A DNA stretch of 47,583 nt from positions 1 to 47,583 of the forward strand of contig NZ_GG668581.1 of the NCBI RefSeq assembly GCF_000160755.1. The letters are read 5' to 3'. Under the pieces are notes generated by a model that was given only the letters and a program-made list of their open reading frames with translations, made no database searches and had not been told where the DNA came from. This document shows positions 767-45,886 of the stretch, piece after piece. The stretch comes from Proteus mirabilis ATCC 29906. Lineage in GTDB: Bacteria; Pseudomonadota; Gammaproteobacteria; Enterobacterales; Enterobacteriaceae. Made by a program: the position numbers and the translations under genes. Numbering within the stretch: position 1 is the stretch's first letter; each line of letters begins with the position of its first letter.

Positions 767-2218
767 TTAATCACGCCAAAATGTTGGTGTAAATAAAACC
801 AATAATGTGAAAACTTCTAATCGGCCAAATAACATGGTGACAACAAGTATCCACTTAGCGGCTGGATTCATTGTTGTAAAGTTATCAGCAACAATACCTA
901 ATCCTGGACCCAAATTATTAAGTGTTGTAGCAATAGCAGAAAAAGCAGAAAACTCATCAACGCCTGTCGCTATTAATAGCATTAAGCTAATAATAAACAC
1001 TAAAGCATATGCTGAGAAAAAGCCCCAAACCGCTTCTATAATACGCTCTGGTAATGCTCGATGTCCTAGTTTAATCGTATAAACCGCATTAGGGTGTACA
1101 AGACGTTTTAATTCACGAGAGCCTTGTAAAAACAGCAGTAAGATACGGATTACTTTTAATCCCCCCCCCGTTGAACCAGCACAGCCCCCGATAAAGGCAG
1201 AACACAACAGTAACAGAGGTAAAAAAGTTGGCCACTGGGCAAAACTATCTGTTGCAAACCCTGCGGTTGTTGCCATTGAAACAACTTGGAAAAAAGCTTG
1301 ATTAATTGTTGTCCATCCAGAGTCATATACCGAATAGAGCCATAGAACAAGGCTACAAATAATCACTAATCCGAGCTGTATAAAGATAAACATGCGAAAT
1401 TCAGGATCACGCCAATAAATATTGAGGCTTCGCCCTGTTAAAACCGAAAAGTGTAAAGCAAAGTTACACCCTGAAATTAATAGAAAAACACCAATAATGA
1501 CGTTAATTGTTGGACTATTAAAATAGCCAATGCTTGCATCATGGGTAGAAAATCCACCGATTGCAATAGTAGAAAAACTATGCGAGATAGCATCAAACAC
1601 GTCCATACCCGCAATCCACAACGCAAGGGCACAAATAATAGTGAGTAAGACATAAATCAGCCACAATGCTTTCGCAGTTTCTGCGATCCTTGGGCGCATT
1701 TTATTGTCTTTCAAAGGCCCCGGCATTTCTGCCCGATAAAGCTGCATTCCCCCAACGCCTAACAGTGGAAGAATGGCCACCGCTAATACGATGATCCCCA
1801 TTCCCCCTAACCATTGCAGCATTTGGCGATAAAATAAAATCGCTTTAGGTAAGCTATCCAACCCAACAAGTGTCGTAGCCCCTGTGGTTGTTAATCCGGA
1901 AAAAGATTCAAAAAAGGCATCGGTAATCGATAGATGAGGTTGTTCCGAAAAAATAAAAGGCAATGCCCCTACGCTGCCTAACACAGTCCAAAATAAAACC
2001 ACAATAAGAAAACCTTCTTTGGGTTTTAGATCACTTTTATTGTTTCGATTGGGGATCCACAACATTAGCCCAATAATAAGAGCGACAATAAATGTCTGAC
2101 TAAATGCTCGTCCTGCACCATCCCGATAGATCAACGCAACGATACCGGGGATGATCATCGTGACAGAGAATAAAATAACAAGTAGCCCAACAATTCGGGT
2201 TATTGAACGAAAATGCAT
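767..2218 (-). CDS. trkH: Trk system potassium uptake protein TrkH
   Basis: TrkH is the inner-membrane, K+-translocating subunit of the Trk uptake system, working with TrkA. The 483-residue length matches E. coli TrkH. The four pore-loop repeats are visible: GLTTTGATT near 108, IAIGGFSTHD near 219, SMATTAGFAT near 314 and GGCAGSTGGGLK near 344, each with the filter glycine. The N-terminus MHFRSITRIVGLL is nearly identical to E. coli. Codons for the last filter (Gly351-Gly353) contain an uninterrupted run of nine G (nine C on the plus strand, 1161-1169), an unusual slippage-prone tract. The gene begins 25 bp after yigZ and probably shares its transcript. Confidence 0.96.
   Translation of the reverse strand: MHFRSITRIVGLLVILFSVTMIIPGIVALIYRDGAGRAFSQTFIVALIIGLMLWIPNRNNKSDLKPKEGFLIVVLFWTVLGSVGALPFIFSEQPHLSITDAFFESFSGLTTTGATTLVGLDSLPKAILFYRQMLQWLGGMGIIVLAVAILPLLGVGGMQLYRAEMPGPLKDNKMRPRIAETAKALWLIYVLLTIICALALWIAGMDVFDAISHSFSTIAIGGFSTHDASIGYFNSPTINVIIGVFLLISGCNFALHFSVLTGRSLNIYWRDPEFRMFIFIQLGLVIICSLVLWLYSVYDSGWTTINQAFFQVVSMATTAGFATDSFAQWPTFLPLLLLCSAFIGGCAGSTGGGLKVIRILLLFLQGSRELKRLVHPNAVYTIKLGHRALPERIIEAVWGFFSAYALVFIISLMLLIATGVDEFSAFSAIATTLNNLGPGLGIVADNFTTMNPAAKWILVVTMLFGRLEVFTLLVLFTPTFWRD
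1161..1169. repeat. C9/G9 homopolymer inside trkH
   Basis: Nine consecutive C on the plus strand encode part of the TrkH selectivity-filter glycines. Synonymous GGT or GGC codons could interrupt it. A slip of one base would frameshift the last quarter of TrkH. Confidence 0.9.
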
Positions 2219-42620: not shown

Positions 42621-43397
42621 GTGATAGAGACCAAACAGCATGAACGTTTGCGTCGCCTTAGCGAATGCATAAAACGCTCAGGCCGCATCCATCTCAAAGA
42701 TGCCGCGAGGATCCTTGAAGTATCTGAAATGACCATTCGTCGTGATCTCAGTTCAGATGTTGAAAACCCCTATCCGATGTCACTGCTTGGTGGCTATATT
42801 GTCGCATTGGCACAACCTCATAGTAACCTAATCACATCGACTAGTGATATTATCACCCCGGATCAAACCCAAGAATTACATATTCCTAATCTTGCTGCGG
42901 GCATGGTGTCTGAAGGTGATGTACTATTTTTTGATAATGGCCAACTTATTCCGACATTAATTGAGCTTATTCCTGAGAGTTTACACTTTACTGGTATTTG
43001 TTATTCGCACCGCGTTTTTCTGGCATTAAGCCGAAAGAAAAATGCGACCGTACTACTGTGTGGTGGCGAATATCGCCCTAAAAGCGACTCATTTTATAAT
43101 CCCCTCCAGCCTTGTTACCTTGATAACATAAACCCGAAAAAAGCCTTTATTTCCGCAGAGGGTGTCCACCTCGATTTTGGTGTCTCTTGCTACAACATCG
43201 ATGATCTTCATATGAAAAGAAAAGCGATGGATAAATCGATTCGCAAGATCTTACTCACCAAATACCACGCCTTCGATGAAACCGCCACAGGCAATATGGG
43301 GGATTTAGCGCAATTTGATGTCGTGATCACCGATAGAAAATTAACAGATGATTACGAAGCCTATTGCCGAAAAAGCTCAGTTAAAATTATTTATTAA
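42621..43397 (+). CDS. deoR: DeoR-type transcriptional repressor
   Basis: The 258-residue product (E. coli DeoR 252) has the DeoR helix-turn-helix (RIHLKDAARILEVSEMTIRRDLSSD, residues about 22-46), LLGGYIV, and a C-terminal sugar-phosphate sensing domain (FFDNGQLIPTLIELIPE, then LCGGEYRPKSDSF, ISAEGVHLDFGVSCYN). In E. coli, DeoR is induced by deoxyribose-5-phosphate. It starts with GTG at 42621 after AAGGA. It presumably represses deoK and deoC. Confidence 0.9.
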   Translation: MIETKQHERLRRLSECIKRSGRIHLKDAARILEVSEMTIRRDLSSDVENPYPMSLLGGYIVALAQPHSNLITSTSDIITPDQTQELHIPNLAAGMVSEGDVLFFDNGQLIPTLIELIPESLHFTGICYSHRVFLALSRKKNATVLLCGGEYRPKSDSFYNPLQPCYLDNINPKKAFISAEGVHLDFGVSCYNIDDLHMKRKAMDKSIRKILLTKYHAFDETATGNMGDLAQFDVVITDRKLTDDYEAYCRKSSVKIIY

Positions 43398-43473
43398 CCC
43401 AAAAGAAAAATCTCACTGTTCCCTAATTTACTTTTTTTGGTAAACAGAAAGAAAAATCACGCTACTTTTTTAA

Positions 43474-43502
43474 TTGCTAAAGTGAAAAAAAGTGATTACT
43501 AT
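43474..43502 (+). promoter_or_regulatory. Sigma-70-like promoter of rtcB2-prfH
   Basis: TTGCTA (43474-43479) and TACTAT (43497-43502) are separated by exactly 17 bp, four and five matches of six to consensus. Transcription would start near 43509, giving a leader of about 140 nt before rtcB2. No sigma-54 -24/-12 elements and no rtcR are visible, unlike the E. coli rtcBA locus. Confidence 0.6.
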
Positions 43503-43538
43503 TCGCCTGATTTATTATTTTCCATTTCACAGAACTGC

Positions 43539-43599
43539 AAGGAGGTATCCCATGACAACAACAAATATGAATACTCTTTGCGGACAATCTCAAAAGTAA
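43539..43599 (+). CDS. 15-codon upstream ORF in the rtcB2 leader
   Basis: A consensus Shine-Dalgarno AAGGAGGT (43539-43546) five bases before ATG 43552 drives a short frame reading MTTTNMNTLCGQSQK and ending TAA (43597-43599). AAGGAGGTATCC also extends pairing to the 16S tail with one bulge (full complement AAGGAGGTGATCC). The rtcB2 gene itself has no comparable ribosome site. A regulatory leader peptide is the likely reading. Confidence 0.55.
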
Positions 43600-43620
43600 T
43601 CCTTTCTTTTTACTGTCCGC
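43580..43620 (+). promoter_or_regulatory. Leader hairpin overlapping the upstream ORF
   Basis: Inverted repeat GCGGACA (43580-43586) / TGTCCGC (43614-43620), with extra inner GTAA/TTAC pairing. The 5' arm lies within codons 10-12 of the upstream ORF, so a translating or stalled ribosome would block it. TGTCC can also pair with GGACA at 43666-43670, at the start of rtcB2. A T-rich stretch (43630-43637) follows but is too distant for a standard terminator. Confidence 0.5.
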
Positions 43621-43651
43621 CAATCACGTTATTTTTTATCCTTTACAATAT

Positions 43652-44800
43652 ATGGATTGGAATATGGACAAGTGTGTTCATTATTTATCTGATCGCGTTT
43701 GTTATATCGCCTCAGATAAAACTTGGATTGAAAGTAAAGCAATCCAACAACTAGTAACAACCGCTCAACTTCCTGAAATGGCTTATGTCACTGGCATGCC
43801 AGACTTACATCCCGGTCGTGGTTATCCCATTGGAGCGGCTTTTTTTTCTGTTAACCGTTTTTACCCTGCTTTAGTCGGTAATGACATTGGCTGTGGTATG
43901 ACACTGTTTCAAACAGAATTTAACCATAGCAAACTCAATTTAGATAAAATAGAAAAAAAATTGAGCGAAATGAGTGATATCGCGCCCATCGAATGGTTGA
44001 TAGATAATTTACCTGCAGATATGCAAAATCATCCATTTGCTCACTCATTAGGCTCTATTGGTGGTGGAAATCACTTTGCTGAATTCCAACAAATTGACCA
44101 AGTTATTAATCAAGCATTGTTTACAAACAGTGGTATTAATAAAAAACAATTATTGCTATTGGTGCATAGTGGTTCACGTGGTTTAGGGCAATCTATTTTA
44201 CGTGCTCACACAGAGCAATTTGGCCATCAAGGATTGGTCGCGAATACAGACGCTGCCAATGACTACTTACAAGCCCATGACCATGCTCTTAATTATGCTA
44301 AGCTCAATCGCCACTTGATTGGCCATAGAATGATGGAACAAATTCATACACAAGGAACGGTTATTACTGATGTTAACCATAATCTGGTAGAGCCTTGCGA
44401 ATTATATAATCAACAAGGATGGTTACATCGCAAAGGGGCGACGCCCGCTCATCACGAAATTGTGGTTATTCCTGGTTCACGTGGTGATCACAGTTATCTC
44501 GTTAAGCCTATTATCTCTGAATTAAGCCTTCATTCTCTACCACATGGTGCGGGTAGAAAGTGGATGCGAACGGAGTGTAAAGGCCGTTTATCACATCGAT
44601 TTACGCCATTACAGCTCTCACGCACAGCACTAGGTAGCCGTATTATTTGTGCTAATAAACAATTAATTTATGAGGAAGCGCCTCAATCGTATAAATCAAT
44701 TGAAACTGTTATAGAAAGTATGAGGAGTCTTGGTTTAATTGAGGTTATCGCCCGCTTAAAACCGGTTATTACTTATAAAACCAGTGGGGAGATAGCATAA
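43652..44800 (+). CDS. RtcB2-type RNA ligase
   Basis: RtcB ligases join 2',3'-cyclic phosphate or 3'-phosphate to 5'-OH RNA ends through a GMP-histidine intermediate with Mn2+. The 382-residue protein is shorter than E. coli RtcB (408). Active-site motifs are complete: GNDIGCGM (Asp78, Cys81), GGGNHFAEFQ (His141), HSGSRGLGQ (His172) and LPHGAGRKWMR (His298, the guanylated His by alignment to SHGAGR). The prfH-linked form (RtcB2) repairs 16S rRNA cut at the decoding centre. The start could be 43652 or 43664; neither has a strong ribosome site. prfH overlaps its stop (TAATG). Confidence 0.88.
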   Translation: MDWNMDKCVHYLSDRVCYIASDKTWIESKAIQQLVTTAQLPEMAYVTGMPDLHPGRGYPIGAAFFSVNRFYPALVGNDIGCGMTLFQTEFNHSKLNLDKIEKKLSEMSDIAPIEWLIDNLPADMQNHPFAHSLGSIGGGNHFAEFQQIDQVINQALFTNSGINKKQLLLLVHSGSRGLGQSILRAHTEQFGHQGLVANTDAANDYLQAHDHALNYAKLNRHLIGHRMMEQIHTQGTVITDVNHNLVEPCELYNQQGWLHRKGATPAHHEIVVIPGSRGDHSYLVKPIISELSLHSLPHGAGRKWMRTECKGRLSHRFTPLQLSRTALGSRIICANKQLIYEEAPQSYKSIETVIESMRSLGLIEVIARLKPVITYKTSGEIA

Positions 44801-45411
44801 TGTTATTACAATTTTCTTCAGCACAAGGCCCCGAAGAATGCTGTATAGCGGTAGAAAAAACATTGAATTATTTTCTAACCGTCACAGAGCAGCGGCAAGT
44901 TGATGTGATAATTCTTGAGCAAGAGCCATCGCGTTATGGTTTAAAGTCAGTATTAGTATCGCTTAAAGGTGCAGAGGCTAAAGCTATCGCACAACAATGG
45001 TCAGGCACAGTGCAATGGCAATGTACAAGTACTTTAAGACCTAAACATAAACGCAAAAATTGGTTTATCGGTATCGCTTATTTTGAACCACCACAAGAAA
45101 TCCAAGACACCGAAATTTTATTTGAAACCATGCGCGCCAATGGCCCCGGAGGACAACATGTTAATAAAACGAGTTCAGCTGTCAGAGCGACGCATATTGC
45201 AACAGGCATTAGCGTCAAGATCCAGTCTCAGCGAAGCCAACATGCTAATAAAAAATTAGCGAAACAGCTTATTGCTTGGCATCTAAATCATTATCTATCC
45301 CAACAGCAAGCTTCATTTAATAACCAGCGGCACCTAGCTCATCACCGAGTGATCCGTGGTAATGCAACTCATTGTTTTTATGGACGTGAGTTTTTACCAA
45401 TAACGAAATAA
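44800..45411 (+). CDS. prfH: Peptide chain release factor homologue PrfH
   Basis: The 203-residue product has a class-I release factor catalytic domain with GPGGQHVNKTSSAVR (GGQ at 117-119), which triggers peptidyl-tRNA hydrolysis, but lacks the stop-codon-reading domain of RF1/RF2. Published work shows that PrfH rescues ribosomes stalled by cleavage in the 16S decoding centre so that the linked RtcB2 can religate the rRNA. Its ATG overlaps the rtcB2 stop, so the two are translationally coupled. Unlike the K-12 prfH, which is degenerate, this copy looks intact. Confidence 0.92.
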   Translation: MLLQFSSAQGPEECCIAVEKTLNYFLTVTEQRQVDVIILEQEPSRYGLKSVLVSLKGAEAKAIAQQWSGTVQWQCTSTLRPKHKRKNWFIGIAYFEPPQEIQDTEILFETMRANGPGGQHVNKTSSAVRATHIATGISVKIQSQRSQHANKKLAKQLIAWHLNHYLSQQQASFNNQRHLAHHRVIRGNATHCFYGREFLPITK

Positions 45412-45425
45412 CTCATATAAAACTA

Positions 45426-45450
45426 AAGCCACGTTATTAAATCGTGGCTT
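45426..45450 (+). terminator. Stem-loop after prfH
   Basis: An 8-bp inverted repeat AAGCCACG / CGTGGCTT with a nine-base AT-rich loop lies 15-40 bp after prfH. No proper U-tract follows, so termination strength is uncertain. Confidence 0.5.
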
Positions 45451-45886
45451 AACTGACTAATAAATCTAATAATTAAACCATCACTGTGATCTTAAATAAT
45501 AAAATCGGTTATACATCTTAGTAGATAGCGAAAATAAAAACGCATCAGCGATGTTAAATGCCATCAGTATAAGATAGAGGGTTATTATTAATTCACTTTA
45601 GTGATGATTAGCCATCTATCACGACTTTTAATTACTATTTCATTTAACATTAGACCTGATTTTATACTATAAAAACAAAGCTTTAACACTATAGAGTAGT
45701 AATAGAAAACATTTTAAAACGATCAAATATGCATCATCAATTATTGATTTATGACGTTCAATAAAGATATATACTTATATTTTAATATCAAAGATGCCTA
45801 GAAGTAATTTCTTATCATTACTATATTACTCAATAAACTACTACTATATGAGTATTTTTTAACAAAGCACTATTGTGATAATATTA
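45451..45886. other. AT-rich gap between prfH and the XRE gene
   Basis: About 430 bp without a recognisable gene, RNA or repeat. It is strongly A/T-rich, consistent with acquired or decaying sequence beside the rtcB2-prfH unit. Confidence 0.4.

Follow-up and report, generated by a model that had tools for sequence, protein, structure and literature searches.

A conserved short open reading frame and alternative RNA pairings precede rtcB2-prfH in Proteus mirabilis and probably monitor translating ribosomes

The window, meaning the whole stretch of 47,583 nucleotides of Proteus mirabilis ATCC 29906 that was analysed, contains an rtcB2-prfH gene pair preceded by a leader with the following features.

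43474..43511, plus strand: predicted sigma-70 promoter (TTGCTA 43474-43479, spacer of 17 nt, TACTAT 43497-43502, GC-leaning discriminator)
43535..43544, plus strand: segment A, CTGCAAGGAG, which holds the Shine-Dalgarno sequence (SD) of the upstream open reading frame (uORF) and pairs with 43574-43583
43539-43546, plus strand: uORF SD, AAGGAGGT, followed by a 5-base gap (ATCCC) and the ATG at 43552
43552..43599, plus strand: uORF of 15 codons, MTTTNMNTLCGQSQK and a stop, read directly
43574..43586, plus strand: segment B, CTCTTTGCGGACA, within the latter half of the uORF; its partner is A (through 43574-43583) or C (43580-43586 facing 43614-43620)
43614..43625, plus strand: segment C, TGTCCGCCAATC, whose partner is B or D
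43654..43670, plus strand: segment D, GGATTGGAATATGGACA, comprising a weak SD and the rtcB2 start; pairs with C
43664..44800, plus strand: rtcB2, RNA ligase RtcB family (NCBIfam NF007153/PRK09588, 564 bits against a cutoff of 407; TIGR03073)
44800..45411, plus strand: prfH, peptide chain release factor H (NCBIfam TIGR03072, 264.7 bits)

The start of rtcB2 was corrected from 43652 to the ATG at 43664. The motif ATGG[GA]CA marks the conserved start in 43 of 44 leaders examined, the exception being L030 with ATGAGCA. In a genus with small genomes (f27/g140), 13 of 14 RtcB2 matches contain one TGA, and in four of five genes read from that genus the TGA lies between the two ATGs; because this in-frame stop follows the upstream ATG in relatives, the second ATG is taken as the true start. 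The TGA was found two codons 3' of the upstream ATG in L130, L133, L136 and L140, and L132 of the same genus has TGG instead. Recoding of this TGA was considered and rejected, since the codon precedes the true start. The genome of the window holds a single RtcB-family match, RtcB2, and 16 of 19 congeners have an RtcB1-like match as well. In two Proteus-type loci, L019 and L037, rtcB2 matches in two pieces in different frames, and the leader is kept.

Transcription is predicted to start near 43510, from the sigma-70-like promoter, which a plain consensus scan of the window did not list. The initial annotation had described an SD five bases 5' of an ATG, a 15-codon ORF, the repeat GCGGACA/TGTCCGC and a GGACA at 43666-43670, and all of these are present. 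The exact sequence AAGGAGGTNNCC occurs once in the window, as the uORF SD; only this exact match is notable, because with up to two mismatches there are 22 occurrences against 21.2 expected. Two copies of AAGGAGGTATCC are found in the whole 4.03-Mb genome, and AGGAG followed after 4-9 nt by an ATG and an ORF of 10-26 codons occurs twice on both strands of the 47.6 kb, the leader uORF among them. The B:C arms, read directly, are GCGGACA 43580-43586 and TGTCCGC 43614-43620. For C:D, GATTGG 43655-43660 faces CCAATC 43620-43625, and TGTCC 43614-43618 can indeed pair, as had been proposed, with the GGACA that overlaps the rtcB2 ATG (43664-43666). The uORF stop lies 64 nt from the rtcB2 start. Folded as a single sequence, the leader of the window is of ordinary stability (z -0.92), and its significance therefore rests on comparison. 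An Rfam search of 43300-45500 at E values up to 5 gave two matches, both outside the leader.

RtcB2 relatives came from two sources: a set of 197 relatives, 53 of which had a match (RtcB1 counted), and named genomes, which contributed 69 loci. The leaders used were the upstream stretches of L001-L040 and L051-L109 (99 in all), L041-L050 being left out because their contigs match in length Proteus contigs already in the set. Seven of the 99 were without a scripted uORF (L026, L038, L039, L098, L101, L103, L109), and in L026, L038 and L098, where the stretch is short or misanchored, the uORF or the B letters are still visible. Removal of these seven and of four identical copies left 88 leaders; removal of L019, with its anchor off and its rtcB2 broken, and of Clostridia L102, L105 and L106 left 84, of which 49 are non-redundant. 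Among the 47 of these 49 with at least 100 nt upstream, TTGN3-N16..18-TAN3T stands 20-75 nt 5' of the SD in 36, against 3% of letter shuffles, and the discriminator has 6.3 G/C of 9 against 3.6.

A uORF of 12-19 codons with an SD precedes rtcB2 in Proteus, Providencia, Morganella, Klebsiella, Kosakonia, Superficieibacter, Citrobacter, Phytobacter, Pectobacterium, Lonsdalea, Serratia, Oceanospirillales and Tahibacter. Strong SD, uORF and all three linked helices are found together ahead of rtcB2-prfH across Enterobacterales, a Pseudomonas-like genus, Oceanospirillales and Tahibacter. A diverged form is present in Burkholderiales (Hydrogenophaga, Rhodoferax, Ideonella and kin). There, in L079-L084, L087-L092, L104 and L108, the uORF peptide is nearly constant (MQKNTTSLWAGSAVAGL in many) and a GACCTCC within the uORF could pair with the uORF SD, which makes this leader form different and more peptide-like. 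Other short uORFs stand before rtcB2 in Clostridia L102, L105 and L106 and in L154 and L161, where the covariance model described next has no match.

This model, R1, rests on 23 leaders, none of them from Proteus or Pseudomonas. It scores the window at 83.3 bits, as the one strong copy in the genome (runner-up 18.6), E. coli L110 and L113 at 108.9 and 107.7, and eleven Pseudomonas-like loci at 65-78; it did not match Clostridia L102, L105, L106 or Burkholderiales L079, L081, L104. Forty of 394 Enterobacterales genomes were matched, 33 at full length (at least 143 nt) and seven over 55-59 nt, the latter taken as chance. The full-length matches precede rtcB2 in 31 of 33 cases (L129 is a contig-end fragment; G369 and G484 were placed by coordinates), and the one in G324, inside a glycosidase-like frame, was taken as chance or false. 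The remaining full-length match, L126 (G137, 1300-1720, minus strand), is an intact leader directly before prfH, with rtcB2 reduced, as judged by eye, to a short remnant. With presence of RtcB2 set at E <= 1e-60, the protein is found in 36 Enterobacterales genomes and the leader adjoins it in 34, 30 of them by R1 and four (G124, G390, G440, G478) by a smaller R1 search and by eye; G143 and G381 have rtcB2 without a recognisable leader. Beyond this tally, leaders occur in G907 and G984 and a short uORF only in G516 and G1146; inspection of G694, G564, G747 and G962 revealed no leader, and the stretch of L162 (G1029) was too short to judge. In the genus of G907 the protein is present in 12 of 25 genomes, and R1 matches all 12.

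The leader core is found in 5343 of 5426 complete E. coli genomes, and in K-12 MC4100 it is kept before truncated rtcB2-prfH genes. A Klebsiella leader-rtcB2 query is covered to 80% or more in 2649 E. coli genomes. Several E. coli strains, K-12 MC4100 among them, carry repeat-like insertions that separate C from D (L111 at about 1308-1440, L112, L113). The uORF is annotated in none of 12 E. coli rows inspected and in none of four regions examined. The K-12 gene ykfJ is reported to be inducible by 4-azaleucine. The stretch upstream of ykfJ ranks 98th among candidate switches (PMC4448311); it coincides by coordinates with the C-D repeat, and the accessible part of that report does not remark on the uORF. 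Judged by comparison of genomes, the leader is a real, widely conserved and largely unannotated element.

Conservation extends to the pairing of the segments. In 23 non-Proteus leaders all 138 of 138 B:C cells are paired and three of six pairs have changed on both sides, an outcome that upholds what the initial annotation expected of relatives, in which strong SD, uORF and stem are all kept. The numbers of paired cells and of both-side-changed cells and the covariation score were reached by 0 of 500 shuffles; 63 of 500 shuffles reached the number of both-side-changed pairs and that of pair types. These counts were made on alignment A2, without Proteus (and also without L072), since alignment A1 misaligned C in the Proteus rows; on A1, RNAalifold returned B:C only, with four pairs. 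The hexamer and tree tests covered 40 RtcB2 rows. Pairs were scored in 37 of them, all but the three of the Pectobacterium group, and in each of these 37 the B hexamer has a counterpart further downstream with which all six positions form standard pairs, five or more being Watson-Crick. On the RtcB2 tree the number of supported independent contrasts for the three variable B:C pairs is 3, 4 and 4, in each case fewer than a formal test needs; on average the partner followed in 2.7, 2.9 and 1.7 of them, and in none did it change in the opposite direction.

All three helices were also compared by swapping segments among 27 leaders, a few of them from one genus and with relatedness uncontrolled. 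Cognate and permuted mean duplex energies were -12.75 and -11.02 for A:B (21 of 27 rows better, 0 of 2000 permutations reaching the cognate mean), -22.10 and -17.34 for B:C (26 of 27; 0 of 2000) and -17.89 and -15.27 for C:D (24 of 27; 0 of 2000). A:B, which comprises ten pairs including G-U when read directly in Proteus and Providencia, is paired in 81.3% of cells in one fixed register on A2. The fixed-register result for C:D is weaker: 74.6% of cells are paired, and the covariation score was reached by 58 of 500 shuffles. By eye, L144 (G478), whose letters are largely different, keeps CTGGAAAGGA/TCCTTTTCAG, AGGTCTT/AAGACCT and CCTTTCAA/TTGAAAGG. In Proteus the B:C and C:D cores abut with one base in common, and their mutual exclusion would therefore depend on the pairing that spans the start codon, which is the weaker one. 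Peptide sequence is not conserved among the uORFs, the B core being read in two frames (LCR in 28 and FAG in 11 of 39 leaders scored), which argues that selection acts on the RNA. The spacing from uORF to B is narrow (core at +20 to +29, stop at +37 to +49 in 28 gamma leaders). Comparison of the leaders shows a predicted constitutive-type promoter, a strongly initiated uORF and segments able to pair as A:B, B:C and C:D.

The leaders were also folded with a ribosome footprint blocked at positions along the uORF. The rtcB2 start is easier to open with the ribosome at the uORF start than at the stop in 71 of 88 leaders, and the reverse holds in eight (margin 0.3 kcal/mol). In 30 leaders chosen from the 84 (28 gamma and two beta), the difference is +2.97 kcal/mol, with 28 leaders above 0.3 and one below -0.3; 360 shuffles gave -0.03 (sd 1.54). 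Averaged over the 28 gamma leaders, the change in opening energy relative to free RNA is -1.43, -1.07, -0.58 and -0.97 kcal/mol with the ribosome at codons 1 to 4, +0.54 at codon 5 and +1.1 to +1.7 at codons 6-15, the sign changing between codons 4 and 5. In the leader of the window, opening takes 13.3 in free RNA, 12.6 with the ribosome at codon 1 and 14.6 at the last codon. For E. coli L110 the values are 12.7 free, 8.7-11.3 at codons 1-4, 13.5-15.2 at codons 6-9 and 11.3-12.0 at codons 10-15; the start is hidden at codons 6-9 and at 10-15 about as open as at codon 1. No clear switch is seen in L175, L126, L027 and L066, it is small in most Burkholderiales, and in the 30 leaders opening the rtcB2 start still takes 7.5-14.5 kcal/mol when a ribosome occupies the start of the uORF. 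In these models, the folding favors translational attenuation, in which a ribosome at codons 1-4 would free the rtcB2 start and one at codons 6-15 would hide it.

The initial annotation knew of no description of such a leader. This was mistaken: a described relative exists in the PA5471.1-armZ-prfH system of P. aeruginosa. In the accessible parts of the reports on that system, PA5471 (armZ) is an RtcB-like protein, PA5470 is prfH or a release factor, and PA5471.1 is a 13-residue leader that monitors ribosome disruption, full translation giving a 3:4 terminator and a stall or a codon-3 amber turning armZ on (PMC12057347, PMC3516279, PMC13041342). The codon-3 amber raises ArmZ in P. aeruginosa (PMC13041342), and PA5471.1 lies about 250 bp before the gene (PMC3516279). 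The uORF of L175, from the genus of G907, encodes MIQFSTLCRLRLA and a stop; it has 13 codons, among them Gln3 and Phe4, and a C at both nt 7 and nt 12. From its first base to the gene ATG is 254 nt, and from its stop 215 nt. In length, codons 3 and 4 and distance this agrees with PA5471.1 as far as the published text available describes it (PMC13041342, PMC3516279). R1 recognises L175 at 35.7 bits (E 9e-9). Because L175 fits PA5471.1 and is recognised by R1, the leader of the window is assigned to the same kind.

We propose that the leader is probably the version found in Proteus of a conserved leader with which rtcB2-prfH operons monitor ribosomes, working through a switch between B-C and C-D. 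According to this proposal, healthy ribosomes would traverse the uORF and cover B, C would pair with D, and rtcB2 would be poorly translated; without a ribosome, A:B would form and C would again pair with D. A ribosome that starts on the strong SD and halts within about four codons would cover A and leave B free to capture C, and the rtcB2 start would open; PrfH would then be supplied through translational coupling. That ribosome position on the uORF sets rtcB2-prfH expression, as had been suggested, is very likely, and the folding is consistent with induction of the Proteus leader by an early stall.

The nature of the damage offers a candidate signal. RtcB2-PrfH protects E. coli ATCC25922 against colicin E3, according to the available part of PMC9223846; cleavage of the E3 type falls on 16S rRNA. 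E3-cut ribosomes retain about 75% of initiation and about 15% of pentapeptide synthesis, and by extrapolation make nothing longer than about eight residues (PMC2615495). Since the uORF has 12-19 codons and B lies at about nt 20-35, such ribosomes would sit where the folding predicts the ON state; this match is suggestive, and the uORF would act as a processivity test for ribosomes that start and halt within a few codons. The earlier idea that slow termination at the TAA turns rtcB2 on finds no such agreement, as the modelled rtcB2 start is less accessible with a ribosome at or near the stop and E3-cut ribosomes, given the extrapolated limit of about eight residues, would hardly reach it (PMC2615495). 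A sensor of anti-SD loss was also rejected, because failure to initiate would let A:B form and leave C:D, hence OFF. General elongation inhibitors should induce the leader too, and we do not claim specificity for damage, since antibiotics that hold ribosomes at early codons should signal alike, as the accessible text reports for toiL (PMC12121999). It could tentatively be hypothesized that the leader is an ancient sensor of ribosome integrity, its uORF length and B position tuned such that ribosomes cut in the decoding centre, which start and read few codons, induce the RtcB2-PrfH that releases and repairs them, and that P. aeruginosa later tied it to drug efflux via ArmZ.

The strongest competitor is transcription attenuation, in which the state of translation would choose between B:C and a terminator formed from C and D. 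This is the model stated for P. aeruginosa in the available text of PMC13041342 and PMC12057347, the latter adding that further studies are needed, and the four-segment layout is common to both leaders. However, the leader of the window has no terminator-like site, 10 of 84 leaders have any and at no common place, and D coincides with the rtcB2 start, the letters after it in the window being coding sequence that lacks a T run. We consider this reading unlikely for the Proteus leader, where Rho-dependent loss of untranslated mRNA may be a secondary effect. Reinitiation, by which ribosomes ending the uORF would restart at rtcB2 and the uORF would merely feed or throttle the gene, draws on a strong uORF before a weakly initiated gene and on the 64 nt separating them in the window; yet stop-to-start distances range from 63 to 215 nt among the measured gamma and beta leaders (the misanchored L019 aside), E. 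coli strains carry the repeat insertions between C and D, and three coevolving helices would be left unexplained, all of which renders it improbable. A leader peptide whose own sequence stalls the ribosome, or which responds to a single amino acid or drug, would account for the TLCG/LCR residues that recur in many uORFs and for the importance of PA5471.1 codons 3 and 4 in a P. aeruginosa cca mutant, but the peptides differ, the conserved letters of B are translated in either of two frames, and in the wild type neither Q3K nor F4L obviously affected ArmZ (PMC13041342); this reading is quite improbable. That the leader is a plain 5' UTR masking the ribosome-binding site (RBS), with rtcB2 constitutively low and the uORF a by-product, is very improbable: C:D does mask the start even in free RNA in several folds, but a strong-SD uORF at a narrow distance from B in 28 gamma leaders, the A:B pairing and the dependence of control on the uORF in the P. 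aeruginosa relative (accessible part of PMC13041342) speak against it.

Set beside known classes of control, the preferred reading of translational attenuation places the leader as follows. Between uORF and gene there is no GC-rich hairpin with a T run, as an intrinsic-terminator attenuator would have; an alternative helix lies over RBS and start, as in RBS masking, with D holding the start and fixed-register C:D covariation weak; and a conserved nascent peptide, as in arrest-peptide leaders, is not found in gamma leaders, the Burkholderiales peptide being nearly constant. Translational attenuators of the erm/cat type use alternative hairpins, and a stalled leader ribosome opens the downstream RBS; there, stalling is drug-specific at a defined codon, whereas the peptide of the rtcB2 leader is not conserved. 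Control of rtcBA relies on the protein sensor RtcR and a sigma-54 promoter; an RNA-repair ligase is controlled in both systems, but rtcB2 has a sigma-70-like promoter and an RNA leader. The toiL uORF of topAI-yjhQ in E. coli is similar in that stalled ribosomes unmask the RBS of the next gene in translational control, tetracycline and retapamulin stalling at the start codon; the genes are different, the repressive hairpin of toiL joins uORF and RBS directly, and the model includes Rho termination inside topAI (all from the available text of PMC12121999).

In the open-licence literature we found neither a link between PA5471.1 and the leaders of Enterobacterales rtcB2-prfH nor the damaged-ribosome logic. 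The leader joins three literatures that we found apart, on repair of colicin-damaged ribosomes by rtcB2-prfH, on the PA5471.1-armZ leader and on uORF attenuation; it suggests a route of induction for rtcB2-prfH in Enterobacterales, and through a K-12 leader reporter the signal of PA5471.1, and the choice between transcriptional and translational control, become testable. The two leaders differ in that the Proteus uORF has 15 codons instead of 13, the C-D distance is shorter, a terminator-like site is absent in Proteus and the P. aeruginosa-like L175 has no switch in folding. They share a PRK09588 gene followed by prfH, a short uORF with an SD, four alternatively pairing segments (C:D being weaker in a fixed register) and detection by R1, which finds both the window and L175; an early hold of the ribosome turns the gene on in P. 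aeruginosa, as stated in the accessible part of PMC13041342. On this comparison of sequences, the Proteus leader is related to PA5471.1, under whose control stand prfH and armZ, itself an rtcB2.
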